A DNA stretch of 64,000 bases from Geothermobacter ehrlichii (lineage in GTDB: Bacteria; Desulfobacterota; Desulfuromonadia; Desulfuromonadales; Geothermobacteraceae). Positions 11,013 to 28,750 of the stretch are shown piece by piece (within the stretch, counting starts at the first letter, position 1; every line of letters starts with the position of its first letter). Below the pieces are notes generated by a model. The model saw only the letters and a program-made list of their open reading frames with translations, was not told the origin of the DNA and did not search any database. The translations under genes and the position numbers were made by a program. Where the stretch lies: assembly GCF_008124615.1 (NCBI RefSeq), contig NZ_VNIB01000006.1, positions 1 to 64,000 on the forward strand, written 5' to 3'.

Positions 11013-12111
11013 TTACTGGCAACGAAAAGCCTGAATCCCGGTAACGTTCTGACCTATGATTAATGTATGCACATCGTGGGTTCCCTCGTACGTGTAAACA
11101 GCCTCGAGGTTGGCCATATGTCTCATAATTGGATACTCACCCATGATGCCATTGGCCCATAAAATGGTGCGGGCAGTGCGAGCAACTTGTACGGCTATAT
11201 TGACGTTGTTCATCTTCGCCATGGAGTCCTGAGCAGGTGTATAAGTTTCCTTATCTTTCAAACAGCCAAGGCGCAGAGCTAACAGTTGCCCTTTCGTTAT
11301 CTCTGTTACCATCTCTGCCAGTTTCTTTTGTTGCAGCTGAAATGATGCGATTAGTCGATCAAACTGGATCGGCTTAGGGAATATTCAAGAGCGGTCTGAT
11401 AACAATCATCAGCAGCACCGAGGACTCCCCAGGCGATGCCGTAGCGGGCTTGTGTCAGACAGCCAAGTGGTCCTTTAATGCCTTTGGCATTCGGCAACAG
11501 ACTTTTCTCCCCATCAACAATAACATTGTCAAAAACTAATTCTGACGTTACCGATGCACGTAAACTCCACTTTCCATACTTCTGGGGTGCAGAAAACCCG
11601 GTAGTACCCTTTTCTACCAGGAAGCCACGAATACCTTCGTCGGTCTTGGCCCATACCACCGCCACGTCAGCAATACTGCCGTTGGTGATCCCCATCTTCG
11701 AACCATTGATCCGCCATTTTCCCCAGCTTCACGGACCGAATGGGTACGCATACCTGAAGGATTCAACCCAAAGGTCAAGCTCTGTCAGACCAAAACACCC
11801 AACTACATTACCGCGGGTCAGTTTGGGCAACCAGTAATCTTTCTGTGCATCACTCCCATAAGCGTAGATCGGGTACATAACCAATGAACCCATAACTGAG
11901 GCAAAGCTGCGTAGCCCTGAATCGCCTCGCTCCAGTTCATACATCAGCAAGCCGTATGCAACATTGAACCGGAAAGGTCTCATTCTGGGCATGTTCGTCA
12001 ATTATCGGGAGGACATTCGGGAGGACATCTTCATTCACAAAAGCGCGGGCAGTCTCCCTTACCGGATCCCTGAAGCCCCATGTAATCTGTAAAATCTACC
12101 CTTGCAGGCAT
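11013..12111 (-). pseudogene. gcdH: glutaryl-CoA dehydrogenase, multiply frameshifted
   Basis: Pieces in different frames align in order to glutaryl-CoA dehydrogenase: VRETARAFVNEDVLP near 12050, [24 protein letters not shown], then [10 protein letters not shown] in another frame, INGSKMGITNGSIADVAVVW, a core ending QARYGIAWGVLGA, QFDRLIASFQLQQKKLAEM across a further shift, and YTYEGTHDVHTLI with the catalytic Glu. At least four frame changes (about 12050, 11770, 11705, 11350) and a deletion of the segment after NETFP are visible. The start is probably the ATG at 12111. The working enzyme oxidises and decarboxylates glutaryl-CoA to crotonyl-CoA using ETF. It lies between a racemase and the also-broken EMR gene. 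Confidence 0.9.
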
Positions 12112-12136
12112 AATGACTCTTCCCTTATCTAGAACC

Positions 12137-13261
12137 CTACATCACACCAATATCCTGCAGGTTGTCGATCTCGGCCCTTGAAAATCCCCATTCGGAGAGA
12201 ACCTCCTCGTTGTGCTCACCCGGCAAAGGCGGAGGCCCTTGGATTTCTGGATGCGTTCGACTGAATCGCGGTGCTGGCGCAGGCTGAACAACCCCATCAA
12301 TCTCGATAAACGTATTACGTGCCTTATTATGTGGATGTGCTGGTGCTTCATCCATATCCAGAACCGGGGCAAAACAAATATCTGTTCCCTCCATGAGAGA
12401 GCACCACTCTTCTCGCGTTTTGGTTTTAAACAGTTGCGTCAGTTTCTGCTTCAACTCAGGCCACATCTCAACATCCAGTTGTGCCTGGAAGGCAGGATCG
12501 TCAATCCCACAGGTCTTAAGGAACAAATCATAAAACTGCGGCTCGAGAGCAGCTATGCTCACATATCTTCCATCGGCACATTCGTAGCAATCATAAAAGT
12601 GAGCCCCCCCATCAAAACGGTTGGCTCCCCTCTGATTGCTCCAAATTCCTTTAGCCTTATACGCATATATCATTGCCATAAGGGTTGAAACTCCATCCGT
12701 CATGGCAGCATCAACCACCTGCCCCTCGCCAGAAGCCTTGGCTTCCAGAAGCCCGCATACAAGACCAAAGGCGAGCATCATGGCCCCACCGCCAAAATCA
12801 CCCACCAGGTTCAAGGGTGGAACCGGCGGACTATCTGGACGACCAATGGAATAAAGAGCTCCAGTTAATGCTATATAATTTATGTCATGACCGGCCGCAT
12901 GAGATAAAGGACCATATTGACCCCAGCCAGTCATACGCCCATAGACCAGTTTCGGATTACATTCTAAACATTGGTCAGGGCCAAGTCCCAATCGCTCCAT
13001 GACACCAGGGCGAAAGCCTTCGATTAATGCGTCAGCCTTCTCGATCAACTTCAAAGCAGCTCTAACGCCCTCAGGGTGCTTAAGATTTAAAGCTACTGAA
13101 CGACGCCCACGGGAAGTTAAATCCAGCCTCCCAAATCTTTTCTCCCCTTTCCGGTCTATGCGTATAACTTCTGCCCCCATATCGGCCAGCATCATCGCAC
13201 AAAACGGCCCAGGGCCAATTCCTGCAAACTCGATAACTTTTATCCCTCTAAGCGGCCCCAT
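12137..13261 (-). CDS. family III CoA-transferase fold protein, probable alpha-methylacyl-CoA racemase
   Basis: 374 residues of the CaiB/BaiF fold. Unlike true CoA-transferases of this family it closely follows the alpha-methylacyl-CoA racemase pattern: [20 protein letters not shown] at the start, [21 protein letters not shown] with His125, and [11 protein letters not shown] with Asp155. These are the positions of the catalytic His/Asp pair in the mycobacterial racemase; the later EPQFY Glu is also kept. Racemases interconvert 2R- and 2S-methylacyl-CoA so that branched chains can enter beta-oxidation. A second, very similar copy lies at 26668-27795. It is the first gene of the block that continues into gcdH, EMR and etfBA. 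A CoA-transferase role is not excluded. Confidence 0.85.
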
Positions 13262-13328
13262 TGAAAGACTCCATTAATTTAAGATTTTCACGTCAGATCC
13301 AGAGAGGTTTGTTTCGTTAGTAATATGA

Positions 13329-14201
13329 TTACGCACGTATTTCGGCGCGTCCGTTGTTAAGAACCACAACATCTCGCTCACTTGTCCGTGCCCGGAAGGA
13401 AACAATATTTCCATCCAGCCACATTTCAGTACGGATCGTTTCTCCTGGGTAAACCGGTGCGGAAAACCGTACGTCAAGAGAAACGAGCCGAGTTGGATCG
13501 TAATCGCATACAGATTTAAGTATTGCATGTCCAGCTACGCCAAATGTGCAAAGTCCATGCAAAATTGGCTTCTCAAATCCAGCAGCACGTGCAACTGATG
13601 GATCAACATGAAGAGCATGATAATCTCCGCTCAGTCGATAAATCAGGGCTGAACATGGCAACGTATTGAGATCTTGGACCAAGTCAGGTTCGCGATCAGG
13701 CAAAGTGTGCACAGGCCGTACAGGACCTGACGGCCCACCAAAACCTCCATTTGCTCTGCAGAAGGTCGTTTTGGTGAGCGTACACAGCAATTCACCATTG
13801 CTTGCATCATAAATTTCTTGCTCCGTATAAAGCAGAGCCCCTTTCCCTGCCCCCTTGTCAACAATACCTGTAACCCGAGACTTACCGATGACTTCACCTT
13901 CAGGAGGAGGAAGTTTATGAATGCGCAAGCCCTGCTCACCATGAAGGATGCGTAGCCAATCGACGCCAGTGCCGGGATCCTTTAGCCATAAACCAGGATA
14001 TCCTAATACAACAGGATATGTCGGTAGTGTCAGAAGCTCTTTTTCATATACAAACCGTAATTGGTGTTCGTCAGTAGGATCGATACCAAAGCCAACTCCT
14101 AATGCGTAGAGCATGGTATCTCTCTTAGTATATTTTTGCCTTACTTCAGGGATAGGCCAATTCATTAGCTTATCGAAATTAATAATTTTTTCATTTCGCA
14201 T
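13329..14201 (-). CDS. MaoC-like double-hotdog enoyl-CoA hydratase 2
   Basis: 290 residues with two hotdog repeats, as in the hydratase-2 unit of eukaryotic multifunctional enzyme 2. The N-terminal half has YALGVGFGIDPTDEHQLRFVYE. The C-terminal half has the hydratase-2 motif YRLSGDYHALHVDPSVARAAGF with the catalytic Asp and His, although the usual Asn-Pro between them is His-Ala here. It should add water to a 2E-enoyl-CoA to give the 3R-hydroxyacyl-CoA. The ATG at 14201 follows AAAAGGAGAAA, better than the in-frame codon ten residues earlier. It lies between the racemase and a CoA-transferase gene on the same strand. Confidence 0.88.
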   Translation of the reverse strand: MRNEKIINFDKLMNWPIPEVRQKYTKRDTMLYALGVGFGIDPTDEHQLRFVYEKELLTLPTYPVVLGYPGLWLKDPGTGVDWLRILHGEQGLRIHKLPPPEGEVIGKSRVTGIVDKGAGKGALLYTEQEIYDASNGELLCTLTKTTFCRANGGFGGPSGPVRPVHTLPDREPDLVQDLNTLPCSALIYRLSGDYHALHVDPSVARAAGFEKPILHGLCTFGVAGHAILKSVCDYDPTRLVSLDVRFSAPVYPGETIRTEMWLDGNIVSFRARTSERDVVVLNNGRAEIRA

Positions 14202-14254
14202 ATTATTTCTCCTTTTAAACAAAACAACCAATTAGCCACATCAACTATTCAATT

Positions 14255-15811
14255 TTAACAACCTTTTCTCATGCTTCCATTTTCCACAAGATTCAAATAC
14301 ATTTTATAACATTCACGAAGAATGTGTGGTTCGTGAGCAGACTCATTATTGATACACTCCTTGGTGGCTCGATCATAATAATCTCGCAAAATAGGTTTGT
14401 AATCAGGATGAGCACATTTATCTATGATAATTTTGGCTCGATCATTCGGACAAAGCCCACGCAGGTCAGCTAATCCGTACTCAGTTACAATAACATCAAC
14501 ATCATGTTCAGTATGGTCAACATGAGAAACTTTCGGCACAATACTACTAATTCCTATTTTATCGGCTTTAGATGGTCTAACCGATGGTACATGCATGATA
14601 GAAAGATGTGAATTCCTAGTAAAATCGCCAGACCCTCCAATTCCATTTAGCATACGCGACCCTAGAACAAGACTTGAGTTAACGTGACCGTAAATGTCGC
14701 ATTCAACCGGAGTATTCATTGCAATAACTCCAAGACGACGAATCAATTCGGGATTATTACTTATCTGAGCAGGCCTAAGAACAGATTTAGTCGCATATAG
14801 TGACAGATTTTCATAAAAGCGTTTTCGAGCATCAGCGGAAAGTCCAAAACCAGCCCCGGATACAACATCCAATTTTCCGGAATCAATTAAGTCAAGAGCG
14901 CTGTCTTGTATAACTTCTGTCCACATGCTCAAATTTTTAAACGGTCCCTTACCAAGCTCCCTGACAACACAATTCCCTATTTTACCCGTACCTGATTGAA
15001 TTGGTAAAAGATTTTTAGGCAATCGTCCATTCTTTACTTCATAATAAAAAAAATCAAGTATGTATTCAGAAATAATCTCTGGTATGTCGTCTATTACTTC
15101 TAAATCTACATTCCTTCCAGGCTCTGGAATTTGTGATTCGACAACAGCAACAATCTTTTCAGTATCGCATTCGACATATGTTACACCAATTCGATCTCCG
15201 GGATTTGTAATAAGTAGAGGCTGTCTATTTGGAAGCTTTTGAGGAGTAATTATATCATGCATACCTTCGTGGCAAGGCATAACAGTATTTACTTCAATTA
15301 TAATTTTATCTACAAAACGTACTAGCTCCGGGGTCACCCCAACGGCACCACCAAGAACAAGACTGCCATCCTCGTTAATGCCTACAACCTCAACAATGGC
15401 AATATCAACCTTGCCACCTCTTTCAGGAGGGGCGCTATGGTAAGTAAGATCTTGCGCATAATGAGATAAGTGCTTATCTATCATACGGATTCTGCCGCGA
15501 TTTATTGATTTGCGAACACTTGCACCTGATTGATACGGATAACGAACCGTCACCATATCCAATGACGCAAAAACATTATCCATGTTTCCGCCATGGGAAG
15601 CTCCAGTGAAAACCCCGAAACGAAGTTTTCCCTGAAGATTGTTCTCTTCAACATAATCGGCCAAAAATCTAGGTATAACCTTAGGTTCATTTCCAGCAAA
15701 ACCAGAAAACCCTATGTTCATACCATTTTTAAAGAACTGCAATGTATCTTCTGCCCGCATAACCTTTGATAAGAGACTCTTGTTCTTAATCCTACTTGTA
15801 AATTCTGACAT
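14255..15811 (-). CDS. Cat1/AarC-type acetyl-CoA hydrolase/CoA-transferase
   Basis: 518 residues, standard length for succinyl-CoA:acetate (or propionate) CoA-transferases. Visible landmarks are MNIGFSGFAGNEPKVIP near the start, the GTGKIGNCVVRELGKGPF segment, MWTEVIQDS with the probable catalytic Glu near residue 289, GIGGSGDFTRNS, and TEYGLADLRGLCPNDRAK near the end. It moves CoA between short-chain acids and could activate the island's substrate with acetyl- or succinyl-CoA as donor; no AMP-forming CoA ligase is present in the window. Base composition is more AT-rich than the etf genes. The upstream 200 bp (15812-16015) is AT-rich and gene-free and is the likely promoter region. Confidence 0.9.
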   Translation of the reverse strand: MSEFTSRIKNKSLLSKVMRAEDTLQFFKNGMNIGFSGFAGNEPKVIPRFLADYVEENNLQGKLRFGVFTGASHGGNMDNVFASLDMVTVRYPYQSGASVRKSINRGRIRMIDKHLSHYAQDLTYHSAPPERGGKVDIAIVEVVGINEDGSLVLGGAVGVTPELVRFVDKIIIEVNTVMPCHEGMHDIITPQKLPNRQPLLITNPGDRIGVTYVECDTEKIVAVVESQIPEPGRNVDLEVIDDIPEIISEYILDFFYYEVKNGRLPKNLLPIQSGTGKIGNCVVRELGKGPFKNLSMWTEVIQDSALDLIDSGKLDVVSGAGFGLSADARKRFYENLSLYATKSVLRPAQISNNPELIRRLGVIAMNTPVECDIYGHVNSSLVLGSRMLNGIGGSGDFTRNSHLSIMHVPSVRPSKADKIGISSIVPKVSHVDHTEHDVDVIVTEYGLADLRGLCPNDRAKIIIDKCAHPDYKPILRDYYDRATKECINNESAHEPHILRECYKMYLNLVENGSMRKGC

Positions 15812-16159
15812 TATAAGGCTCCCACGATACTACTGAATGCTAAAATTGCTCCAATACATTCCATGTTATTGATAATATATAAATTTTTTATTATTTTTAT
15901 TGTTAATTTTCTTCTAAGAAATGGTGACTCTTCTGATACATTTTAAGAACAAAAGATCTTAACATCTTTTATATTTCCTGATTAAACTAACACATTGCAA
16001 TTGTCATGAGTCATGTAGCCCAGGTAAATCCTGGGGATTGATTTTGTGAACCGCTCAAAGCTGTCGTTAAACACAACGGTCACCTAAAAGCAGCGGCTCC
16101 ACCAACTTGAACTGATCCCGCCACCAAACCCCTGTCTTCTGCCGCCATATATACTCTCG
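15812..16159. other. gene-free AT-rich intergenic stretch
   Basis: No credible gene is seen. The first 200 bases are very AT-rich and sit upstream of the CoA-transferase, so a promoter is expected here. From about 16016 the composition rises and the stretch probably belongs to the decayed IS4 element that follows, but I could not read a matching protein in it. Confidence 0.5.
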
Positions 16160-16890
16160 GATGGCATGCTCATACCGGAACCGTTAGCAGGCAAAATCCA
16201 CCTGGACGAGGACTTCGGCGTCGAACTCCACCAGACCGTTTATGCTCTGGATGCGACGACCATCGATCTGTTGCCGGAAGCGGGCGTCATCTATGTAATG
16301 GCTCGCGGCTATCTCGACTTCTTCCGTCTGTACCGTCTGACCAAGGCTTGCACCTTCTTCATCATTCGGGCCAAGAGCAATCTGGCCTGTCGGCGGCTCT
16401 ACTCTGGCCCTGTGAACCGGGATGCTGGTGTTGATCTACGACCAGACGATCAAACTGACCGGCCACTACTCGGCGCGGTATTCCCTGGAAAAGCTGCGAC
16501 GCGTAAAGGTGCGCGACTCAGAGAGCGGCAAGGCCATTGTTTTGCTGACCAACAACTTTACGCTGCCGACAGCAACAGTTGCCCAACTCTACCGCAGCCG
16601 CTGACAGATCGAACTGCCCTTCAAATGGATCAAGCAGAACCTGCGGATAAAGCGTTCTATGGTACCAGCGAGAACGCCGTGAAGACCCAAATCTGGATCG
16701 CAGTGATCGTGTACCTGCTGGTCGCCATCATGAAAAAGCGGCTCAAGATCGGGGCCAGTCTCTACACAATTCTACAGGTTCTGAGAGCCTCCTCGTTCGT
16801 GATAACCCGTTAAATCAACTACTTGCAAATTCGAGCTACGAAACCGAACTTGACAAAACACATAACAAGTTGAATTTATTTATTCACAAA
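16160..16890 (+). pseudogene. IS4-family transposase remnant
   Basis: Fragments in different frames follow the IS4 (DUF4372-type) transposase in order: DFGVELHQTVYALDATTIDL (first catalytic Asp region), then directly VIYVMARGYLDFFRLYRL after a deletion, FFIIRAKSNLACRRLYS, LIYDQTIKLTGHYSARYS in another frame, VLLTNNFTLPTATVAQLYRSR, an in-frame TGA where family members have Trp, LPFKWIKQNLRIK, YGTSENAVKTQIWIAVIVY and a normal C-terminal tail to about 16890. Frameshifts, a stop and an internal deletion make it inactive. It separates the CoA-transferase from the SDR gene. Confidence 0.85.
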
Positions 16891-17033
16891 CTATTCCGGA
16901 CACTAGTGCGGACAAATATACATCCACTATCAGATGTACGTCAGTCTGAACATTGACCTCCACAACATACAGCACATCTAATGGCAACATTCTGAATACA
17001 CTAGAGAGCACTTACTAACTTCGGTTTCTTATA

Positions 17034-17921
17034 TTAAATAGGATCCCAACTAAAAATATCTTGCGAACGATCCAGTTGGTACATATTTTTTTCAAGTGCC
17101 GGCATTGCCGTTTCAAAAATACTATCAACCGTCCATCCCTCTCCATTATGGACTGAGCGTACCGGTCGAGACTGTCCCATCAAGAATATTTCATTCATTC
17201 GAACCGCAAAGATTTGGCCAGTGATATGTGCTGCCTTATCACAACAAAGAGCTGCCGCGACAACTCCAACCTTATCTGGTGTCATGCGTTTCATTCTTTC
17301 AACACGCAACGCTTGATCGGGGGACTCTGTCGGAATAGTGGCAACCAAAGGGCTCCATGCAAAGGGAGCTATGCAATTTGAACGAACATTGTAGCGTTTC
17401 ATATCGAGAGCTATTGATTTAGACAGCCCTGCGATACCAAGCTTTGCTGCTGAATAATTGGCTTGTCCGAAATTACCTATTAAACCTGATGTCGAAGTCA
17501 TATGAACATATGCGCCACTGCTTTGATTACGAAAGTATGTAGCAGCGGCACGGCTAACATAAAAATATCCCCTCAAATGAACATCAACTACTTCATCGAA
17601 GTCATCTTTTGTCATTTTATGGAAAATCACATCACGAAGAATACCGGCATTGTTCACTACGGCATCGATACGTCCAAAAGCATCGACTGCCTGCTTAATC
17701 ATATTATTAGCACCATCCCAACTTGAAATACTGTCCGTATTGACTACGGCTCCAACACCAAGTTCTTTTAGTTCAGTTACTACCGATTCCGCGTTCTCTT
17801 TATTGATATCATTAACAACAACACTACCGCCCATTTTTGCAATTTCGAGAGCAATAGCGCGACCTATACTACGCCCAGCACCAGTTACAACAACAGATTT
17901 ACCTTCCATATGTTTTTTCAT
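17034..17921 (-). CDS. short-chain dehydrogenase/reductase, MFE-2-like 3R-hydroxyacyl-CoA dehydrogenase
   Basis: 295 residues. Classical SDR features are present: the NAD-binding VVVTGAGRSIGRAIAL, NNAGILRD, Ser143 region and the catalytic YSAAK (Tyr156, Lys160). The pairing HKMTKDDFDEVVDVHLRGYF resembles the SDR units of multifunctional enzyme 2, and the long C-terminal extension beyond residue 240 fits that group. I infer oxidation of a 3R-hydroxyacyl-CoA to the 3-ketoacyl-CoA, complementing the MaoC hydratase and feeding the thiolase next door. The ATG at 17921 has an AAAGGATAG site. It lies 280 bp downstream of the thiolase gene. Confidence 0.85.
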   Translation of the reverse strand: MKKHMEGKSVVVTGAGRSIGRAIALEIAKMGGSVVVNDINKENAESVVTELKELGVGAVVNTDSISSWDGANNMIKQAVDAFGRIDAVVNNAGILRDVIFHKMTKDDFDEVVDVHLRGYFYVSRAAATYFRNQSSGAYVHMTSTSGLIGNFGQANYSAAKLGIAGLSKSIALDMKRYNVRSNCIAPFAWSPLVATIPTESPDQALRVERMKRMTPDKVGVVAAALCCDKAAHITGQIFAVRMNEIFLMGQSRPVRSVHNGEGWTVDSIFETAMPALEKNMYQLDRSQDIFSWDPI

Positions 17922-18204: not shown

Positions 18205-19407
18205 TCACACGCCAAAATGCCCAATAATTGCAACACTCGCTACATTCATATGCGGATAACCGCCAAGGTTGTGAACCAATCCGAGCTTGGGATCTTTTAA
18301 TTGCCTCTTGCCGGCCCGCCCTAAAAGTTGCAAATACATCTCATAAAGCATACGCAACCCTGATGCACCAATAGGATGGCCAAAACACTTCAAACCGCCA
18401 TCTATCTGGCAAGGAATCTTGCCTTCTGAGTCATAGACACCATCTAGGACATCTTTTGCAGCACACCCGCTTTCTGACAAAAACAAGTCTTCCATAGTTA
18501 CAAGTTCAGTGATAGAAAAACAGTCGTGAACCTCGGTCATACTAAGTTCATTACGAGGGTCTTTGATGCCAGCTTCCTCGTAGGCTTTAGCGGCAGCAAC
18601 ACGCGTAGGTTTAAGAAAAGAACCGTCCCAGTTATTGTATCCAGCTTCCTCACCATTGGACGTGGATAGCTGCAGTGCTTTGACACCGACCAAGTCCTTC
18701 TTTCCTAAACTGCGAGCGATCTCAGGGGTTGTGACTATTGCACAGGCGGCACCGTCACTCACACCACAGCAGTCGTATAAGCCTATCGGGTCCGCAATCA
18801 TGGGTGCATTCAACACTTGTTCTTCAGTAATGGCCTTTTGTATATGTGCTTTAGGGTTTTTCGTTGCATTTGCATGACTTTTAACTGATACATGCGCCAT
18901 CGCACGTTTCAGATCACGCATGTCAATCCCGTGAACTGCCGAATATGCCGTCGCTAACTGCCCAAACAATCCTGGAGCCGAAATGTTCGGGTAATACATG
19001 TCATTGAAAACTCCACGCGTTCTCTGGGGGAGCCCGCCGTATCCGATATCTTTTAATTTCTCAACGCCAAGAGCCAAGGCAATGTCACAAGCACCTGACG
19101 CTACAGCATATACAGCACCACGAAACGCCTCAGTAGCGCTTGCACAAAAATTTTCAACCTTCGTGATGGGAATATATGGCAAATGCAAAGCAAGACTTGT
19201 AGACAAAGATCCTGGTCCCACGTTAAATGCATCGATTCCGGTTCCCTGCCATGCAGCATCAATTTGTTTTTTTTCAATTCCTGCGTCCTGAAGACATTCA
19301 TCAAAAGCCTCAATCATCAAGTCTTCAGCATTACAATCCCATCGTTCTCCAAATTTACTGCAACCGGCACCAAGGATTACAACTTTATCTTTAATTCCGC
19401 TGGCCAT
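18205..19407 (-). CDS. SCP-x-type thiolase
   Basis: 400 residues. The nucleophile Cys88 is in ENFCASATEAFRG, and the other thiolase motifs are EVHDCFSITELV (about 305), GLKCFGHPIGASG (about 355) and a C-terminal VHNLGGYPHMNVASVAI where ordinary thiolases have a CxGxG loop. That pattern marks the SCP-x/lipid-transfer-protein thiolases, which cleave branched or steroid-like 3-ketoacyl-CoA and commonly act with an OB-fold partner. The gene directly upstream (24 bp) encodes exactly such an OB-fold protein fused to an HMG-CoA-synthase-like domain. Start ATG with a GGAGGTG site. Confidence 0.9.
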   Translation of the reverse strand: MASGIKDKVVILGAGCSKFGERWDCNAEDLMIEAFDECLQDAGIEKKQIDAAWQGTGIDAFNVGPGSLSTSLALHLPYIPITKVENFCASATEAFRGAVYAVASGACDIALALGVEKLKDIGYGGLPQRTRGVFNDMYYPNISAPGLFGQLATAYSAVHGIDMRDLKRAMAHVSVKSHANATKNPKAHIQKAITEEQVLNAPMIADPIGLYDCCGVSDGAACAIVTTPEIARSLGKKDLVGVKALQLSTSNGEEAGYNNWDGSFLKPTRVAAAKAYEEAGIKDPRNELSMTEVHDCFSITELVTMEDLFLSESGCAAKDVLDGVYDSEGKIPCQIDGGLKCFGHPIGASGLRMLYEMYLQLLGRAGKRQLKDPKLGLVHNLGGYPHMNVASVAIIGHFGV

Positions 19408-20895: not shown

Positions 20896-20962
20896 ATTCA
20901 GGCTCCTTTCAACCTAGCCGACTCTCTAATTTTTAATGCATTATTGTTAATTCTCATTTTTA

Positions 20963-22111
20963 CTACAGAGACCGAGCAATCAGCTCCTTCATGATTTCAT
21001 TAGCCCCGCCATAAATCTTTTGAACTCGAGAATCTGCATACAAATGCGCAATTGGATATTCCAACATATAACCGTAGCCACCAAAAAACTGGAAACACTC
21101 ATCCACGATTTCACATTGCTTCTGGGTAAACCACCACTTAGCCATTGCGGCCGTGGTAGAATCAAGATTCCCGGCGAGCACCTCTTCTACACAGTGATCG
21201 AAAAATACTCGAGCAATCTTTGCTTCTGTTTTACATTCTGCCAACTTGAAACGAGTATTTTGGAATTCAATGAGAGGTTTTCCAAAGGCCTTACGGTCTT
21301 TGACATATTGCACTGTGAGGTCGATTGCCCTCTCTATAAAGGCAATGGCCCGCAGTGCTATATACATGCGCTCACGAGGCAATTGACCCATGAGTTGAGC
21401 AAAACCTTTACCTTCTTCGGTTCCGAGCAAATTGGATACCGGGACTCGAACGTTGTCAAAAAACAGCTCCGTTGTATCCGATGCTTTTTGACCTATTTTT
21501 TTCAATGGTTTTCCACGTGTAAAACCTTCCAATCCATCAGTTTCAACCATAACGAGGGAGATCCCCTTATGTTTCAGCTCTGGAGCGGTTTTAACCACAA
21601 CACAAACAAGATCCGCAGTGACCCCGTTTGTAATGAAGGTTTTTGAACCATTGATGATATAATGGTCCCCTTCACGACGTGCACTCGTCGTTATATTTCC
21701 GAGATCGGATCCGGCGCCAGGCTCCGTCATGGCAATGGCACCAATCATCTCCCCGGTAGCCATTTTCGGTAACCATTTATTTTTCTGTTCGTCTGTTCCA
21801 TACGAAAGAATATAATGAGCCAGAATACAACCATGAACATTGACATTAAAACCAGTGATACCAAGCCGGTACAACTCTTCCTGGATCACCACGTCATGAG
21901 CAAACGTACCTCCGGCACCACCATATTCTTCTGGAATACTAGGCAACAGAATCCCCATCTCACCAGCTTTGATCCAAGCTTCTCTATCTACTACACCTTG
22001 TTCGCACCAACGTTCATAGTGGGGCACAAATTCTTCCAAATAAAACTGTCGCACTGAATCTCGAAGAATTCTCAGTTCATCATCCATCCAGGTAGGCTCA
22101 TTGCTTTTCAT
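20963..22111 (-). CDS. acyl-CoA dehydrogenase (long/branched-chain type)
   Basis: 382 residues with the standard signatures AIAMTEPGAGSDLGNI, GSKTFITNGVTADLV and FQFFGGYGYMLEYPIAHL. The C-terminal motif reads IYGGANEIMKELIARSL, so the Glu found in medium-chain enzymes is Gly. As in isovaleryl- and long-chain acyl-CoA dehydrogenases the base is probably the Glu of PRERMY around residue 245. It should form the 2-enoyl-CoA from a longer or branched acyl-CoA. The ATG at 22111 follows AAAGGAAGG and is preferred over a start 12 codons upstream. It is the first gene of a run ACAD-HMGS/OB-thiolase-SDR. Confidence 0.93.
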   Translation of the reverse strand: MKSNEPTWMDDELRILRDSVRQFYLEEFVPHYERWCEQGVVDREAWIKAGEMGILLPSIPEEYGGAGGTFAHDVVIQEELYRLGITGFNVNVHGCILAHYILSYGTDEQKNKWLPKMATGEMIGAIAMTEPGAGSDLGNITTSARREGDHYIINGSKTFITNGVTADLVCVVVKTAPELKHKGISLVMVETDGLEGFTRGKPLKKIGQKASDTTELFFDNVRVPVSNLLGTEEGKGFAQLMGQLPRERMYIALRAIAFIERAIDLTVQYVKDRKAFGKPLIEFQNTRFKLAECKTEAKIARVFFDHCVEEVLAGNLDSTTAAMAKWWFTQKQCEIVDECFQFFGGYGYMLEYPIAHLYADSRVQKIYGGANEIMKELIARSL

Positions 22112-22147
22112 GTGTTCAACCTTCCTTTTGTTATTGCTAAACGACAA

Positions 22148-22590
22148 TGTCGTCGGTCAACAAATCAAACATTTTCAATAATTTAAATTGCATATGAAAG
22201 CACGCATGGGCAAACAGTGCATTCAATCATCAAGAACACACTGCGATTAATTGCTCCAAACCAACTGAAGCATGTTGTTGAAATTGTAGACGGAGAAAGG
22301 GGACTGCAGCAAGGGCAGACGCAGACGCTTACAAAACCGAAATAAGCGAAATTGGCCGAAAAGGTGGGAAGCTCGTTCGTTTCGTACAAAAAAAACACCG
22401 ACAACCCCTATTCGCAAATAAATTTCGGGACCGCCGATGTTTATTTTAATTCGTTTAGAATGAACTCCTAGGGATCAGTTCCAGATGGTCTTCTGGATGA
22501 AACCCTTCGGAGAATATCTAATGTTTACATTTTCGCACCATTAGATTTGTTTGTCAAGCAAAATTTATTTCGCCTCAGAGGTGGTCCCGG
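22148..22590. other. intergenic region upstream of the acyl-CoA dehydrogenase
   Basis: No protein with recognisable features is seen on either strand in these 440 bases; short open frames here have no ribosome site and no family resemblance. It should contain the promoter of the acyl-CoA dehydrogenase-thiolase run, and its right part abuts a decayed IS3 copy. Confidence 0.4.
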
Positions 22591-22599
22591 TTGTTCGGA

Positions 22600-23215
22600 C
22601 AGGTTGGCGGCAGAAATAAGGTGGACAGCATTCTTGGTTTATGCCGCCAACTGGATAGTCGAGCCGGCGTAGCCGGCCCGGGATTTTTGCCAATATGCCT
22701 CATCTGGTATTTTATCGTCCAGGCTGAAATGAGGCCGCCGAGTGTTGTAGCGATCAATCCACCGCCTGATTCCTTGCCGGGCCCCGCTCCCAGTTTCGAA
22801 TACTTGCAAATAGATGCATTCTTACTTGAGGGACCGCCAGAGCCTCTCGATCATCACATTGCCCTTCCAGCGCCCTTTGCCATCCATGGAGATCTTGATG
22901 CCGGCATCCTTGATGCGTTGAGGTGAACTCATGGCTGGGGAACTGGCAAACCTGACCCGTATTGAAGATCTCGGGATGCCCGTAGCGTTGCAGGACCTCT
23001 TCCAAGGCGGCAACGCAAAAATCAGCATCCATGGTGTTGGACAACCGCCAGGACAGAACCTTGCGGCTGGCCACTACCCATGATCGCCACCAGAAAGCCG
23101 CGTCGCATCGGAATGTAGCTGATGTCAGCGTGACCAAGACCCCCATCCTGGTACGGCTTAATGCACTGTCCGATTTTTGGGAACCACCTCTGTCGGCGAC
23201 GAACTCATGAATTCA
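22600..23215 (-). pseudogene. IS3-family transposase OrfB remnant
   Basis: Broken frames match the integrase core of IS3 OrfB: SRKVLSWRLSNTMDADFCVAAL, EEVLQRYGHPEIFNTGQ, KDAGIKISMDGKGRWKGNVM (the region of the catalytic Glu) and, in another frame, IERLWRSLK then a C-terminal RWIDRYNTRRPHFSLDD-like tail near 22730. Frameshifts near 22830 and 22930 and lack of the N-terminal half and of an OrfA make it inactive. Confidence 0.82.
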
Positions 23216-23221
23216 GCAGGT

Positions 23222-23569
23222 TCAATCCTCAGCAACATATTTTTTCTTGGTATCAAAATAACGCCTTCTGGCAATTTTCACGCAAGCGATAAGCGCTTCA
23301 GTTGATGGCGCCCAACATTTAGACCTAATAACTTCGCTTAATTCATCAATATCGGTCTTCAGATCAACTCCCTGTAATAATTGGCTAAAAAATGAATTAG
23401 CCACATCAGTCACAAATGTAAACTCAACATCCACAATAATATCAGAATTCACATCAACTATCATAATGACGCCCAAAAAACCATATAAACCTTGAAAGGC
23501 CGTTCCACGTGGTGCTGGTGCATATCCACTAACCATGATCGTCTCGTAATTTTTCGTATTATTTCCCAT
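23222..23569 (-). CDS. DUF3870 domain protein
   Basis: 115 codons. MVSGYAPAPRGTAFQGLYGF, VDVNSDIIVDVEFTFVTDVA and FFSQLLQGVDL followed by STEALIACVKIARRRYFDTK match the DUF3870 family, whose members are about this size and have no known function. I place the start at the ATG at 23569, which has GGAGGAG ten bases upstream; an open frame continues further upstream only into the IS30 insertion. It would have been followed upstream by the hotdog protein gene before the IS30 insertion separated them. Confidence 0.75.
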   Translation of the reverse strand: MGNNTKNYETIMVSGYAPAPRGTAFQGLYGFLGVIMIVDVNSDIIVDVEFTFVTDVANSFFSQLLQGVDLKTDIDELSEVIRSKCWAPSTEALIACVKIARRRYFDTKKKYVAED

Positions 23570-23638
23570 CCAACTCCTCCAAATATTTGTTTCCTCCAAG
23601 CTTTTACCGATCTCTTTATTGACGGTAGATTCTAGTTC

Positions 23639-24718
23639 CAAGTGCACCACATCGAGGTGAGTTTGCAAAACAGGACATGATGGGGTTTTCGGTAGTGTTG
23701 AAAGGCGAGAACGACACACCGAAAGGAGCCCACCATGTCCTACACGCATCTTACCTCAGAAGAACGATTTTCGCTTGAACTCTTGCTCCTGGCGGGCCTG
23801 AGTCTCCGAAAAATCGCCAGAATTCTCGGCCGGCACCATACAACCATCAGCCGGGAGATCCGGCGTAATACCGGCACGAACGGCATTTACTGCAGTCTGA
23901 CAGCCCAGCGTTCAGCCGACCGGCGCAGGGCTCAGGCCAGACACTATCGCAGGCAACTGCATAAGCCTCTGGTCGACTATGTTGCCGAAAAGCTGAAGCT
24001 TGACTGGTCTCCGGAGCAGATTGCAGGACGACTTCGCCTGGATTTTCCAGATGATAAGCGCATGCGATGCAGTCCGGAAACCATCTATCGCTGGGTCTAT
24101 CTCGATGCCCAGCAAGGCGGCAAGGTTTATCGCCACTTGCGTCGGCGACATCGCCGACGTCGCCGCCAGAAACGTTTCGGTCAAGGCCGGCGGTTCTTTG
24201 CCGGCCGCGTCAGCATTGCCGAACGGCCTGAAATTGTCGCGCAACGGCTTCGTGTTGGTGACTGGGAAGCCGATCTGATGCTTGGCAAGCCCGGCAAGGG
24301 TGCTCTGGTCACCTACCTGGAACGCAAAAGCCGCTACCTGTGTTGGCCATACGGGTGGCTGACAAATCGGCCAAGGCGTTCAATACGGCCATGGAAACCA
24401 TCATGGCCGGCGTTCCCAGGCCATTGCGCCGTACACTAACCGTAGACAATGGTAAGGAGATGGCCCGATTCAAGGAACTGGAGGAAGCCACTGGCTTCCA
24501 TGTGTATTTTGCCGACCCCTATGCCGCCTGGCAGCGGGGCGCCAACGTGAACGCCAACGGTTTACTGCGGCAGTACTTCTCCAAGGGATGCAACTTTCGC
24601 AAGTCCACCGAGGAGCAGATTCACATAGCCGTTTATCGGCTCAACCACAGTCCGAGAAAGTGCCTTGGCTACCGGACGCTCCATGAAGTGTTCATGAAAG
24701 CGATCTCTGGTGCACTTG
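23639..24718 (+). mobile_element. IS30-family insertion sequence, inactive
   Basis: The ends are marked by the inverted repeat CAAGTGCACCA at 23639-23649 and its complement at 24708-24718. The single transposase gene between them is frameshifted. The element lies between the DUF3870 gene and a hotdog protein gene and replaces the last codons of the latter. I could not define a target duplication with confidence. Confidence 0.8.
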
Positions 24719-24726
24719 CAAATTGA
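23735..24726 (+). pseudogene. IS30-family transposase, frameshifted, catalytic Glu lost
   Basis: The first frame (ATG at 23735, AAAGGAG site) has the IS30 helix-turn-helix (YTHLTSEERFSLELLLLAG, HHTTISREIRRN) and the first catalytic Asp in RVGDWEADLMLGKPGKG. Around 24340 it shifts; the second frame continues with VADKSAKAFNTAM, TLTVDNGKEMARF (second Asp) and WQRGANVNANGLLRQYF. In IS30 proteins the last motif is normally NENTNGL with the catalytic Glu; here that Glu is Val. The gene is thus broken twice. Confidence 0.85.
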
Positions 24727-25162
24727 ATTCGCCTATTTTATCAATGACCATAAAGGTGAAAGTGGATTTTGCGACAAGTTTTCCCGTTATATCTGTACCA
24801 GCAAAAACTTCCGCCTCACAAATAATCAATGTGCCACCAGGCTTAATCACTCTTCCGCGGCAAAACAAATATCCGCTTTCAGTGGAACGAAGAATATTAA
24901 TCTTAAATTCTACTGAAACTACATCCTGAGTATCTCGGATAAGTGAAGTAGCTGCCCCTGTAGCTGCATGTCCAGATAATGTCACAAGTACTCCACCATG
25001 CACTCTTCCCAAATGCTGCCTGTGTATATTGGCAATCTCCAGGGAAGTATCACATCTTCCCACATCAACATCTTCTAGCTTTATGCCAAGAAGTGAAATA
25101 AAGTCCGCTTCATAAAAAATTCTATTAACAGAAAATTTATAATTAATATTATTTGTTCTCAT
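24692..25162 (-). CDS. PaaI-like hotdog thioesterase, 3' end replaced by IS30
   Basis: The protein has the hotdog signature HLGRVHGGVLVTLSGHAATGAA, with the HGG motif of acyl-CoA thioesterases, then VVSVEFKINILRSTESGYLFCRGRV. This suggests hydrolysis of an acyl-CoA to free acid and CoA. The last about ten codons (after KIGEF) are read from the end of the IS30 element, so the native C-terminus is gone, though the core fold looks complete. The ATG at 25162 (MRTNNINYKF) is preferred to an upstream TTG. Function after truncation is uncertain. Confidence 0.75.
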   Translation of the reverse strand: MRTNNINYKFSVNRIFYEADFISLLGIKLEDVDVGRCDTSLEIANIHRQHLGRVHGGVLVTLSGHAATGAATSLIRDTQDVVSVEFKINILRSTESGYLFCRGRVIKPGGTLIICEAEVFAGTDITGKLVAKSTFTFMVIDKIGEFNLQVHQRSLS

Positions 25163-25221
25163 CTCTGCCTTATCAATCAAACATATTGCTCAAAACACTG
25201 AAGAAATTAAAGGTCAAATAT

Positions 25222-25686
25222 TTATAGTTTCATTCTTTCTTTAACCCACCCCTTGTCAAAAGGTGTCTCGTACAGCCAGAAGAATTTCATTTCGCTGAAC
25301 TTCCACACCCCATCTTCTTTAATATATTTTTCCTCATAGCGGCCGCACATCCATCTCGCCTCTCCAGACAATGTTGCAGGCACATCTGCATACCATTTCC
25401 CTTCAGCATGATCACTATCGATGATATCAATAATTGGATTACTGACCATGTGAACAAAGAAAGTCATTGCCTCAGGAATAATCTCTTTATAGAACCTTGC
25501 GATTTCAGCATTTCCATCGTACTGTCCAAACTCATGGAAGTCCGCCTTCGCACCGCGAGCAAACAGGTTCACAACATCATCCATACGGTACTCATCACAC
25601 AAATAACAATATGTGTATCTCAACTTTTTAATCTTCTCAATTTCCTCCAATGCAGTGACTCTTGCTTCAAGATCTTTTGAAGTCAT
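25222..25686 (-). CDS. SnoaL/NTF2-like protein
   Basis: 154 residues of the cone-shaped NTF2-like fold. An N-terminal helix (EARVTALEEIEKIKKLRYTYC) precedes DEYRMDDVVNLFARGAKADFHEFG and a C-terminal sheet ending WMCGRYEEKYIKEDGVWKFSEMKFFW. Members include small hydrolases, isomerases such as ketosteroid isomerase, and the gamma-HCH dehydrochlorinase-like group, and they often lie in ring- or steroid-degrading clusters. The catalytic identity cannot be read. The ATG at 25686 follows GGAGATGGG. It lies between the hotdog gene and the broken lyase. Confidence 0.78.
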   Translation of the reverse strand: MTSKDLEARVTALEEIEKIKKLRYTYCYLCDEYRMDDVVNLFARGAKADFHEFGQYDGNAEIARFYKEIIPEAMTFFVHMVSNPIIDIIDSDHAEGKWYADVPATLSGEARWMCGRYEEKYIKEDGVWKFSEMKFFWLYETPFDKGWVKERMKL

Positions 25687-25781
25687 ATCCCATCTCCTCA
25701 TGTTTTTTTCTTCAGTGTTTTGAGCAATAAACTCGATAAACTTTAGTGCGAAGTACCTCCCCGTCCTCTGGGCGGAATTGT

Positions 25782-26626
25782 TTACTCGCCGTCACCGCAC
25801 AAACGGTTTATTAACTGCACAATTGTTTTGGCACGAGAGTAGACCGGATAATCAATAAATTTACCATCAACTTGAACAGCGACAAGTCCTAGTTTTTCTG
25901 CAGCTTCAAACTTATCAATTATACATAGGGCCTCCACAATTTCCTTTTCTGTTGGAGTATAACTTTCATGTATTACTGGACACTACTTTGGATGAATTGA
26001 TAATTCACCAAACATACCAAGCTGTTTAGTATGTTCTAACTCATCACTTAGCCCTCTATGGTCGTTAAGATCAGGATAAACAGTATCAACTGGTGGATAA
26101 ATACCAGCAGCTCGAGATGCTATTACTAAGTGTGTTCTAGCATATAACAGCCATTCCGAAGTCTTTGAATAATTGTCCCCTATATCCAGGGCGTAATCGA
26201 GAGCACCAAAAGCAGCCTGGAAATTTTATTGCTGGAGTCCGCTATTTCGTATGCGTTTAAAACCCCTTTGGCCGTTTCAATAAGGGGGATCAGATCATAA
26301 TAGGACGTCAGGCGCTCTGCTATGGTCTTGACAATCTTGACGTCATCGGCCTTCGGCAACATGATCCCATCAACTTTAGCATCTATTGCAGCTTCAAGGT
26401 CTTTTTCCCACCATAATGTTCCAGCACTATTAATCCTGACATAACAGGATTTATCATGCTCAACGTTAATTGCAGAGGCAAAGGCTCTGCGAGCATTTCC
26501 TTTATCCGATATCGCAACTGCGTCTTCGAGATCTATAATAATGGCATCAGCTTCTGAATAAAGGCACTTATAAATGAACCGTTCATTGTTCGCCGGCATA
26601 AATAAAAAACTGCGGTTTAATTTCAC
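25782..26626 (-). pseudogene. CitE-like (HpcH/HpaI family) acyl-CoA lyase, frameshift plus amber stop
   Basis: The N-terminal part is a clear CitE-like lyase: RSFLFMPANNERFIYKCL, DAIIIDLEDAVAISDK, CYVRINSAGTLWWEKDL, IMLPKADDVKIV and LIPLIETAKGVLNA with the metal- and CoA-binding residues. At about 26215 the frame shifts; the continuation reads AAFGALDYALDIGDNY, then YARTHLVIASRAAGIYPPVD and GELSIHPK, followed by a TAG at about 25982 where relatives usually have Gln, then PVIHESYTPTEKEIVEA and a normal C-terminus to TAA at 25782. Relatives cleave malyl-, methylmalyl- or citramalyl-CoA. Two lesions in a conserved gene indicate decay. Confidence 0.88.
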
Positions 26627-26667
26627 ATTCGCTCACCAAGTACAATTCTAAAGCAAAAGAAGAAACA

Positions 26668-27795
26668 CTATATTGCCCCACCTTCGTGGAGATTCTCTAT
26701 TTCAGCCTCTGAAAATCCCCATTCGGAAAGAACCTCCTCGTTGTGCTCTCCCGGGAAAGGCGGACACCCTTGGATCTCTGGATGCGTTCGACTAAATTTC
26801 GGTGCCGGCGCGGGTTGTACAACCCCATCAATCTCAATGAACGTCTTTCTTACCTTGTTATGTGGATGCTCTGGTGCTTCGTCCATATCCAAAACTGGGG
26901 CAAAGCAAATGTCTGTTCCCTCCATAAGAGCACACCACTCTTCTCGAGTTTTGGTTTTAAACATTTGTGTCAGCTTCTGTTTCAACTCAGGCCACTTTTC
27001 AACGTCCAATTGCGCATGAAAAGCAGGATCATCAATCCCGCAGGTTTTAAGGAACAAAGCATAAAACTGCGTCTCATAGGCAGCGATACTTATGTATTTG
27101 CCATCGGAACATTCATAAGAGTCATAAAAATGAGCGCCACCATCAAGTCTATTTGTACCTCGTGAATTATTCCATTTTCCTGCGGCCTTAAATCCGTACA
27201 TATAAGTCATAAGAGCTGAAGCACCATCAGTCATAGCCGCATCTACGACCTGACCTTGGCCTGAGGTTTTAGCCTCCAAAACACCACACACAAGACCGAA
27301 GGCGAGCATCATCGCCCCGCCGCCAAAATCACCCACTAAATTCAAAGGAGGGACCGGAGGACTGTCCGGTCGGCCTATGGAATAAAGAGCACTAGTTAGT
27401 GCTATATAATTTATGTCATGTCCCGCCGCGTGGGACAGGGGACCGTTTTGCCCCCAGCCAGTCATACGTCCATAGACAAGTCTCGGATTAACCTGAAAAC
27501 ACTGCTCAGGGCCAAGACCAAGACGCTCCATAACGCTGGGGCGAAATCCTTCAAGCAGAGCATCGGCCTTCTCTATCAACCGCAAGGCGGTCTTGACTCC
27601 TTCTTGGTTCTTAAGGTCTAAGGCTATGGATCGCCTCCCGCGGGAAGTTATATCCAACCGGCCAAACCGTTTTTCACCCTTCCGGTCAATACGGATGACC
27701 TCTGCACCCATGTCAGCCAGCATCATCGCACAGAAGGGCCCTGGACCAATCCCCGCGAATTCTATGACTTTGATCCCCTTAAGCGGTCCCATTTG
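26668..27795 (-). CDS. probable alpha-methylacyl-CoA racemase, second copy
   Basis: 375 residues, closely similar along its whole length to the protein at 12137-13261. It has the same [20 protein letters not shown] start, [14 protein letters not shown] (His125), [12 protein letters not shown] (Asp155), [17 protein letters not shown] and the same tail ([19 protein letters not shown]). The racemase His/Asp pair and the ETQFY Glu are retained. The start at 27795 (MGPLKG) matches the first copy and has an AAGGATAGG site. Two near-identical racemases in one island point to duplication or two imports of a common cassette, possibly with different partners or chain lengths. Confidence 0.85.
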
Positions 27796-27839
27796 CCTAT
27801 CCTTCAAACTAATCAATTTCTTAAATTATATAGGCAAGT

Positions 27840-27915
27840 TATTTTACCTGCTGTTTTTTCGGGCTACAGTCCTAATTGGCCCGGATGATGCTTTCTTGTA
27901 AAGCTTGTTATAAAA
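27840..27915 (-). pseudogene. fragment of a hotdog thioesterase gene
   Basis: About 75 bases upstream of the second racemase resemble the internal part of the intact thioesterase gene at 28346-28750. CTGCTGTTTTTTCGG followed by a similar spaced sequence down to CTTGTAAAGCTTG parallels the intact CTGCTGTTTTTTTTCGG...CCTGTAAAACTCG. Read on the minus strand it gives short pieces like TSFT and RKNSR instead of TSFTGK and RKKTAGK. It is a leftover of a second copy. Confidence 0.55.
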
Positions 27916-27963
27916 AAAGGCTCCAACTACCACCCTCGGATCTATCTTAAGAGTCCGTTTTTA

Positions 27964-28275
27964 CTAAGTTTGAGTCGCAGAATCTATCGTGACCGCCAAT
28001 GTGGCAGGGAGCCAACTGAATTCAGATTTCAGAAAATCATAATCTGGCCCAGATGTGATAAAAGCCGCAGTTCCTTTAATCAGAAATCCAGCACCTTCAC
28101 CATGTAAGCCCGTCACCTTGCTACTACCTAAAGTAATCAGTATTTTATTGTTGTAGATAATATCAATTTCGGTTATATGCATATATCCGGCTGGAATTAA
28201 CAATTGTCCATCTTGTGAAATTAACACATTTACGGATGACATCCGCTCTAAGATCGGATAACACATTTGCCCCAC
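27964..28275 (-). CDS. possible pyridoxamine-phosphate-oxidase-like flavin-binding split-barrel protein
   Basis: About 103 residues. LISQDGQLLIPAGYMHI, KILITLGSSKV and GAGFLIKGTAAFITSGPDYDFLK resemble the strands of small FMN-binding split-barrel proteins (PNPOx-like). The usual N-terminal helix is only partly present, the start (GTG at about 28275) has no good ribosome site, and the segment after SSKV is shorter than in relatives. It may be a truncated gene. It lies between the thioesterase and its fragment, as if inserted into a duplicated copy. Confidence 0.5.
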   Translation of the reverse strand: MGQMCYPILERMSSVNVLISQDGQLLIPAGYMHITEIDIIYNNKILITLGSSKVTGLHGEGAGFLIKGTAAFITSGPDYDFLKSEFSWLPATLAVTIDSATQT

Positions 28276-28345
28276 AAGTTCAGAGAGATTGCCGTGAATT
28301 TTATGAGCTTAATTTCTACAAACATCAAATTGATGTTCCCTACAG

Positions 28346-28750
28346 TCAGTCTTTTAAATAAAGATACGTTGCTTGACCAAGAGCTATTCTCTTTCCGTCT
28401 TCAGCGATTACTTCTACAGTTGACACGAAAGTTGTTTTCCCTGCTGTTTTTTTTCGGCCAACTGCTCTGATTGTACCCGACGATGCCTTACCTGTAAAAC
28501 TCGTGGTCACAGAGAGTGTAACTCCTTTACGAAGTTGCCCACCTGGCCCATATAACCCTGCAAATCCAGCTACTGAATCAATGATAGAAGTTAGCACTCC
28601 GCCATGTATTATTTGGTGTCTGTTCAGATGTTGTGGTCCAACAGTAAATTCCATTACCGCGTAGTCAATGTCCCATTCCACTAACCTAAATCCCATATAA
28701 GCTAGAAAGCCATCATCTACTAATGAGTTAAGAAGTTCTCTTTTATCCAT
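28346..28750 (-). CDS. PaaI-family acyl-CoA thioesterase (hotdog)
   Basis: 134 residues, typical size. NRHQIIHGGVLTSIIDSVAG contains the HGG active-site motif and Asp on the following helix, then GVTLSVTTSFTGKASSGTI and TTFVSTVEVIAEDGKRIALG complete the fold. It probably hydrolyses an aryl- or acyl-CoA intermediate to release CoA. The ATG lies in a weak ribosome-site context. It follows MmgE/PrpD on the same strand after a strong hairpin. Confidence 0.85.
   Translation of the reverse strand: MDKRELLNSLVDDGFLAYMGFRLVEWDIDYAVMEFTVGPQHLNRHQIIHGGVLTSIIDSVAGFAGLYGPGGQLRKGVTLSVTTSFTGKASSGTIRAVGRKKTAGKTTFVSTVEVIAEDGKRIALGQATYLYLKD

Follow-up and report, generated by a model that had tools for sequence, protein, structure and literature searches.

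The window, a stretch of 64,000 nucleotides from Geothermobacter ehrlichii (positions 1 to 64,000 of contig NZ_VNIB01000006.1), contained on its minus strand a gene tract that was interpreted, from its sequence, as an imported beta-oxidation island for CoA esters of acids with an alpha-methyl branch, of isoprenoid-like or alicyclic kind; this interpretation was given a probability of roughly 0.53. Between 11013 and 28750, this strand encoded two racemases, a hydratase 2, a short-chain dehydrogenase/reductase (SDR), a thiolase, an acyl-CoA dehydrogenase, a protein resembling HMG-CoA synthase (HMGCS) with an OB domain and an acid CoA-transferase, as well as two hotdog proteins, a SnoaL-like protein and a CitE-like lyase split over two frames. 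The original prediction, which described a peroxisome-like, R-specific gene set in an anaerobe, was borne out where the joint presence of the families it named was concerned: they shared the minus strand and their catalytic residues were kept. It had not mentioned that the thiolase has an HMGCS-like partner, that genes are broken or that the tract is of foreign origin, nor had it covered the right half of the tract, which ran on as far as 40135 and comprised an MmgE/PrpD protein, two flavoenzymes of the old yellow enzyme (OYE) type, FixABCX-like proteins and a Phenol_MetA_deg protein. Open reading frames of at least 170 aa made up the initial listing. The principal enzymes were the following.

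12137..13261, minus strand: AMACR1, alpha-methylacyl-CoA racemase family (9i2t, 9e-124; 1x74, 1e-123; H125, D155, E240)
13329..14231, minus strand: hydratase 2, double hotdog of MFE-2 type (PF22622, PF01575; 7mku, 7e-59; 1s9c, 3e-57; SGDYHALHVD)
14255..15811, minus strand: acid CoA-transferase, succinyl-CoA:acetate type (NF053853, 570 bits, cut-off 500)
17034..17921, minus strand: SDR, MFE-2-like (3R)-hydroxyacyl-CoA dehydrogenase (structure matches; S143/Y156/K160)
18205..19407, minus strand: thiolase with SCP-x-like active site (NF004810, 665 bits, cut-off 403; C88, HDCFS, H344)
19432..20895, minus strand: HMGCS-like protein fused to an OB (ChsH2/DUF35) domain, hereafter HMGCS-OB (PF01796; alignments; AlphaFold model)
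20963..22147, minus strand: acyl-CoA dehydrogenase of long-chain (LCAD) type (2pg0, 7e-119; LCAD 8w0t, 8e-107)
26668..27816, minus strand: AMACR2 (8rmw, 8e-122, with alignment; 85% identity to AMACR1)

By family and by residues, AMACR1 and AMACR2 are both true alpha-methylacyl-CoA racemases, for which racemisation of 2-methylacyl-CoA is predicted. In a search of solved structures, the best non-racemase chain for AMACR1 was YfdE (3e-41) and the best chain labelled as a CoA-transferase reached 6.5e-39; AMACR2 showed the same pattern. Given racemase matches of 8e-122 to 9e-124, against 3e-41 outside the racemases, an identity as CoA-transferases was rejected, and the clustering with true CoA-transferases that had been named as grounds for refutation did not occur when checked by these structure matches. 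The His, Asp and Glu residues noticed originally were present in both copies (H125, D155 and E240) and aligned with His126, Asp156 and Glu241 of the mycobacterial racemase MCR, whose catalytic roles are given in the available part of PMC12246613.

The hydratase scored 77 bits on PF22622, the N-terminal domain of MFE-2 hydratases (cut-off 27), and 93 bits on PF01575, and its matches to hydratase 2 and MFE-2 structures upheld its description as a double-hotdog hydratase 2. D195 and H200 were present within the SGDYHALHVD motif, where H-A takes the place of the usual N-P. For the SDR, the top three solved relatives were all MFE-2 proteins, namely 2et6 (1.6e-84, summed over two domains), 1zbq (1e-47) and 1gz6 (1e-46), and the catalytic S143, Y156 and K160 were kept; the best NCBIfam model, NF005861, gave 231 bits, below its cut-off of 373. 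Neither protein grouped with enzymes of unrelated pathways, the hydratase being of MFE-2 type and the SDR ranking MFE-2 first, by a small margin among single-domain entries.

The thiolase retained the nucleophile Cys (C88), the Cys of the HDCF motif (as HDCFS) and the His (H344); the NCBIfam model that it matched is named acetyl-CoA acetyltransferase. However, 7yvy (1e-53) and 6esq (3e-52) preceded the SCP2-thiolase (6e-40) in the structure search, and the Pfam scan found no SCP2 domain. Because the overall sequence was nearer to archaeal-type thiolases than to SCP2-thiolase, the enzyme is called SCP-x-like only in its active-site motif; the earlier assignment was correct in that respect, but not as to closest kinship, which lay with the archaeal-type thiolases of OB/HMGCS complexes, without SCP2 fusion. 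The available part of PMC12329534 describes the Cys roles in SCP-2 thiolases and the YDCY or YDHF motifs of the aldolases Sal and Ltp2; with HDCFS and C88, and without these Tyr motifs, a retro-aldolase identity was rejected.

HMGCS-OB consisted of an HMGCS-like domain joined in one chain to an OB domain that has a four-Cys motif. Q116 and T83 stood at the catalytic Cys and Glu positions, as they did in at least 90% of 20 aligned relatives, and the Gln position varied among homologues of the host's own phylum. These positions were assigned by motif and with PMC6392133, the available part of which reports that Cys114 and Glu82 of archaeal HMGCS are missing in PhlA. Since the catalytic Cys and Glu were replaced by Gln and Thr, an identity as genuine HMG-CoA synthase was rejected, and the protein was taken instead as a probable non-condensing partner of the thiolase, with which it would form a complex; its score on TIGR00748 was 99 bits (cut-off 353). 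The AlphaFold model (mean pLDDT 78.6) matched the HMGCS subunit of the archaeal thiolase/HMGCS complex (6esq_J) with Z = 42.4 over 326 residues at 2.0 A, and PhlA with Z = 41.3 and 40.2; these fold matches cover residues 5-386, so that they carry little on the OB part.

The acyl-CoA dehydrogenase anticipated from motifs was present and was of LCAD type. It aligned best with 2pg0, followed by the mitochondrial LCAD 8w0t, with which its helix-G Glu aligned, a position that we take to be a mark of the LCAD type; the IYGGANEIM segment was kept, with no Glu in the C-terminal YxGxxx motif. The acid CoA-transferase also scored 599.5 bits on TIGR03458, below its cut-off of 658.7.

While families, catalytic residues and linkage were observed directly, a step order, a stereochemical route and a substrate can be proposed only conditionally. 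The acid CoA-transferase would activate the acid, AMACR1 and AMACR2 would fix the configuration at the 2-methyl carbon, and the LCAD-type dehydrogenase would form the 2-methyl-2-enoyl-CoA. Hydratase 2 and the MFE-2-like SDR would then yield the 3-keto ester via a (3R)-hydroxyacyl-CoA, from which the thiolase, complexed by an HMGCS-like/OB protein that has no synthase catalytic residues, may release propionyl-CoA. Propionyl-CoA could be taken up by a methylmalonyl-CoA mutase, observed on the chromosome (807 bits), and the OYE-type enzymes and FixABCX-like proteins could reduce unsaturated intermediates and handle electrons. High-GC cobalamin synthesis genes occupied 46449-61319 of the window, including CbiD, a fused CbiH-CobQ frame and CobT, with a cobalamin riboswitch at 61127-61319. 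Among these genes, a ThiC protein also matched the BzaB model, with 543 bits (cut-off 700).

Base composition was unlike that of the host, the tract being a low-GC island, and with its phylogeny it looks like a patchwork imported by horizontal transfer. Third-position GC was 0.28-0.50 for 13 island genes, compared with 0.77-0.89 for nine genes at 44-60 kb and 0.48-0.68 for six genes at 1.6-11 kb; 14 of 15 sampled genome stretches had a GC of 0.59-0.65, the other (contig C20) having 0.51. HMGCS-OB (E<=1e-30) and AMACR (E<=1e-90) were absent from the 11 genomes sampled from the host's own class, order or family; at the same cut-offs they were matched in 88 and 27, respectively, of 297 genomes of the phylum, its own included. 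In the phylogenies, the SDR fell in a starred group of six with Desulfuromonadales bacterium LH_M59 and Gammaproteobacteria; for HMGCS-OB, the starred group numbered seven and took in LH_M59, Porticoccaceae and Cellvibrionales, separate from homologues of its own phylum. The starred group that contained hydratase 2 had nine members, Phreatobacter and Chelatococcus among them, while AMACR paired with LH_M59 at 93, its wider placement being indistinct. These were quick trees with SH-aLRT support only, from which contained duplicates had been removed; those of MaoC and others carried long-branch warnings, one set of rows was filtered by identity and length, and one tree used at most 64 of 112 rows. 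Transposase or insertion sequence (IS) frames or remnants lay at 5434-6779, 15830-17033, 22754-24726 and 41205-41657 (rve/HTH_21, IS4, weak rve, HTH_38 and IstB), and the window begins at the end of its contig (C6).

Related gene sets were compared across 80 named loci among the matches listed for HMGCS-OB, counting matches that spanned 60% or more of the query; many of these loci were cut by contig ends, and just 52 had a length of 15 kb or more. A thiolase of at least 60% identity was found in the same locus in 72 of the 80. The SDR (at least 50%) and hydratase 2 (at least 45%) occurred together in 21, three of which also had AMACR at 50% or more, while OYE, FixC and PrpD gave no match in these loci that reached 30% identity across 60% of the query. 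All ten named relatives' genomes searched had an AMACR match of at least 56% identity, and seven of nine had hydratase 2 at E<=1e-30, the exceptions being LH_M59 and the genome of locus L053; the tenth genome was represented by its locus, L107, which had a match of 61% identity. The nearest named genome was that of LH_M59 (G297; loci L051, L143 and L155), a metagenome-assembled genome sharing eight genes at 55-78% identity. One of its contigs carried the acyl-CoA dehydrogenase (75%), AMACR (72%), CoA-transferase (58%), CitE (55-65%), hotdog protein (56%) and SDR (72%), and a separate contig carried HMGCS-OB (66%) and the thiolase (78%); no RpoB match was found in this genome. In the host's own phylum, several loci (L005, L008, L010, L011, L020 and others) had HMGCS-OB with SDRs and a thiolase at its flanks, some with MaoC, as a related but distinct type of cluster.

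The remaining features of the tract were as follows.

11013..12001, minus strand: acyl-CoA dehydrogenase remnant (Pfam N, middle and C domains spread over three pieces, two in one frame)
15830..17033, minus strand: IS4-family transposase remnant (blastn to plasmid IS4 transposases; best 42% coverage, 66% identity)
23222..23749, minus strand: DUF3870 protein (PF12986, 1e-20)
23735..24726, plus strand: two overlapping transposase-like frames (HTH_38, 3.5e-16; weak rve, 6e-4)
24692..25180, minus strand: hotdog thioesterase-like protein (PF03061; 56% identity in LH_M59)
25222..25701, minus strand: SnoaL-like protein, BaiE superfamily (PF13577; BaiE 4l8o, 3e-8, as fourth match)
25800..26626, minus strand: CitE-like CoA-ester lyase, almost complete in length, its frame changing once near 26213 (tblastn with LH_M59 CitE)
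28346..28750, minus strand: PaaI-like hotdog thioesterase (TIGR00369, 57 bits, cut-off 36.6)
28828..30174, minus strand: MmgE/PrpD family protein (PF03972, PF19305)
30286..32283, minus strand: OYE-type flavoenzyme (TIGR03997, 534 bits, cut-off 793; BaiCD model, 459 bits, cut-off 825)
32345..33193, minus strand: FixA/ETF beta-like protein (TIGR04503, 45 bits, cut-off 200)
33424..33717, minus strand: FixX-like ferredoxin (NF011993, 1e-12, below cut-off)
33705..35012, minus strand: FixC-like flavoprotein (NF007542, 372 bits, cut-off 610)
35022..36011, minus strand: FixB/ETF alpha-like protein (NF038209, 115 bits, cut-off 240)
36125..38263, minus strand: second OYE-type flavoenzyme, OYE36 (BaiCD model, 429 bits, cut-off 825)
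39233..40135, minus strand: Phenol_MetA_deg family protein (PF13557, 1e-25), presumably with an outer-membrane role

The dehydrogenase remnant had an in-frame stop near 11729 and a frame change near 11360, and its start was missing. The transposase-like frames at 23735..24726, of IS30 type by inspection only, lay on the opposite strand and broke up the tract. Between AMACR2 and the PaaI-like thioesterase, 27964-28308 held a 114-codon stop-to-stop frame with no Pfam match. The CitE-like lyase was recovered as two tblastn blocks of LH_M59 CitE, covering residues 7-141 and 142-279 of 282. Besides its own locus, the SnoaL-like protein was found at 23-25% identity in L135/L146 and L175/L205. The FixABCX-like genes were flanked on both sides by the OYE-type flavoenzymes (30286-38263). 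OYE36 had one match beyond its own genome at E<=1e-120 among the 297 phylum genomes (40% identity), where PrpD had no close match (best other, 39%); none of the neighbourhoods fetched for the OYE36 and PrpD matches contained the remainder of the gene set.

Two further claims concerned the genome at large. The host had been called an anaerobe; this was not established, and a strict-anaerobe reading was not supported, the genome having two heme-copper oxidase frames. The reported lack of an S-specific hydroxyacyl-CoA dehydrogenase held for the window, where PF00725 had no match, but four 3HCDH frames occurred elsewhere (contigs C20, C3 and C16, and C6 at 226940). Contig C20 itself (L247/L265, 30 kb, GC 0.51) carried a second low-GC set, with the 3HCDH protein and an HpaB-family protein that we take to be 4-hydroxybutyryl-CoA dehydratase. 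Four genes stood in a row on this contig, for an acyl-CoA dehydrogenase, a family III CoA-transferase, a hydratase like RipB/Ich (213 bits, cut-off 340) and an MmgE/PrpD protein; thiolase- and crotonase-like frames were also seen there by inspection.

Several observations weigh against an island for alpha-methyl-branched acids. None of the genes points to one particular substrate; the CitE and PrpD proteins fit methyl-dicarboxylates, and we know of no place for CitE and the CoA-transferase in pristanate oxidation. Although MFE-2 entries ranked first to third for the SDR, with Ser-Tyr-Lys kept, the two-domain 2et6 entry alone led clearly; the lead of the single-domain entries over FabG/ribitol-type SDRs was small, the non-MFE-2 relative 2hq1 (2.5e-45) following close behind 1zbq. 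Also encoded on the first LH_M59 contig were two further thiolases and a protein like FadB/FadJ (507 bits, cut-off 869), and no hydratase 2 was found in this genome at E<=1e-30, so that the same SDR may act beside an S-specific route. With the 3HCDH frames elsewhere and this FadB/FadJ-like protein, a solely R-specific route was not proven; the joint branched-chain pathway first proposed was right in its families, is plausible in type and has related sets recurring in other bacteria. A 2-methylfumaryl-CoA-isomerase-like protein in 17 of the 80 related loci (e.g., L093, L054 and L056) hints that the intermediate may be a dicarboxylic acid and not an ordinary fatty acid; nine of the 17 were scored, all gammaproteobacterial or unclassified proteobacterial, at 517-614 bits (cut-off 725), and in three genomes with comparable contigs (G299, G300 and G301) AMACR lay on another contig. 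L093 had an Abhydrolase_3 esterase besides, which may reveal a substrate class. Finally, two genes were broken (the CitE frame change and the dehydrogenase remnant) and transposase remnants interrupted the tract.

The small SDR margin and the isomerase-like scores in related loci weakened the case for branched-chain acids and strengthened that for a methyl-dicarboxylate set (of itaconate, mesaconate or methylsuccinate type, or a longer ring-opened diacid), the alternative that survived best, if still unlikely. Here the CoA-transferase would activate, MaoC hydrate, PrpD isomerise and CitE cleave, consistent with the similarity of CitE to RipC/Ccl, the matches of PrpD to IDS-epimerase (3e-31) and cis-aconitate decarboxylase (1e-28), and the adjoining genes on contig C20. 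However, the window piece of CitE reached 74 bits and LH_M59 CitE 158 bits on the RipC/Ccl model (cut-off 375), for which membership of a rip/ict-ich-ccl itaconate operon was rejected; the window MaoC was of MFE-2 type, its family III proteins were racemases, no isomerase-like protein occurred anywhere in it, and a C5 acid would presumably need no thiolase pair.

Slightly less probable again is a reading of the island as an import in decay, in which no pathway works any longer. The broken genes, the transposase remnants, the duplication of AMACR and a composition unlike the host all fit decay, but the core enzymes were open with catalytic residues kept, and the CitE frame change may be a draft-assembly error.

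We consider a steroid or bile acid island improbable. SnoaL/BaiE-like protein, BaiCD-like flavoenzymes and SDR would act on rings, and AMACR, acyl-CoA dehydrogenase, hydratase, SDR and thiolase on the side chain; AMACR, MaoC and SDR do work on sterol side chains, BaiE provided three of the six structure matches of the SnoaL-like protein, both OYE proteins matched the BaiCD model and the OB domain was of ChsH2 type. Membership of a bai operon (bile acid 7-dehydroxylation) was nevertheless rejected, both OYE proteins falling well short of the BaiCD cut-off. The SnoaL-like protein matched no NCBIfam model at 0.001, in a model set not checked for a BaiE entry, the thiolase motif was not that of Sal or Ltp2 as described in the source cited above, and general scans of part of the window proteins turned up no ring-degradation family.

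Genes downstream of n-alkane fumarate addition are very unlikely: a proposed role for AMACR after this step is named in the available parts of PMC6776118 and PMC5756336, with epimerisation of (1-methylalkyl)succinyl-CoA in that of PMC4561516, and a methylmalonyl-CoA mutase is present, but the glycyl radical family (PF02901) had no match in this genome, listed as 100% complete, while three of 14 control genomes matched.

To return to the alpha-methyl-branched island, its fullest form would be a complete oxygen-independent route for isoprenoid-type acids, in which the Cys-to-Gln HMGCS-like/OB protein is more than a scaffold and takes an active part beside the thiolase, much as ketosynthases with a Cys-to-Gln change carry out decarboxylation, and the OYE and FixABCX-like proteins serve reductions and electron flow; as a whole this is improbable. 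What stands out more is that the tract is of foreign origin and that the thiolase is paired with an HMGCS-like protein; the pathway type is plausible. Isoprenoid acids are abundant in sediments and, to our knowledge, little is known of the enzymes by which low-oxygen microbes oxidise methyl-branched carbons; an island-borne, peroxisome-like set would offer named genes for testing such oxidation, and the recurrence of the thiolase/HMGCS-like pair means that one measured function would annotate many genomes. Among the open-access papers listed, no title or abstract opening on this gene set was found, and absence from print is not claimed.

Among known systems, benzylsuccinate beta-oxidation (Bbs) comprises a family III protein, a dehydrogenase, an SDR and a thiolase with OB partner, and the tract resembled it in these respects (BbsB, 2e-40 to the thiolase; BbsD, 1e-34 to the SDR). 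It differed in that the family III proteins were racemases, the hydratase was of MaoC type and no glycyl radical enzyme was found in the genome. The Methanothermococcus acetoacetyl-CoA thiolase/DUF35/HMGCS complex and PhlACB shared the fold of the HMGCS-like part and thiolase kinship; here, OB was fused to the HMGCS-like part, and the Cys and Glu were absent as in PhlA, unlike the archaeal enzyme, according to the part of PMC6392133 already cited.

Proteobacterial SDR-MaoC-HMGCS/OB-thiolase clusters (e.g., Magnetovibrio L092 with AMACR, Porticoccaceae L093 and the Sphingomonas paeninsulae plasmid L154) had the core genes adjoining, at 48-76% identity in these three, unlike the window in having no OYE, FixC or PrpD match; their hosts are presumably of mostly aerobic lineages. 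LH_M59 shared eight genes with the window and differed in its FadB/FadJ-like protein, its two more thiolases, the hydratase 2 not found there and the separate contig of HMGCS-OB and thiolase. Eukaryotic peroxisomal branched-chain beta-oxidation (AMACR, MFE-2 and SCP-x), in which MFE-2 is fused and an oxidase is used, was alike in its racemase, hydratase 2 and dehydrogenase families, their catalytic residues and the SCP-x-like thiolase motif. In contrast to that system, the window encoded separate genes rather than a fused MFE-2, a dehydrogenase rather than an oxidase, and a thiolase without SCP2 that was paired with the HMGCS-like/OB protein, with the acid CoA-transferase and the CitE-like lyase as additional members.

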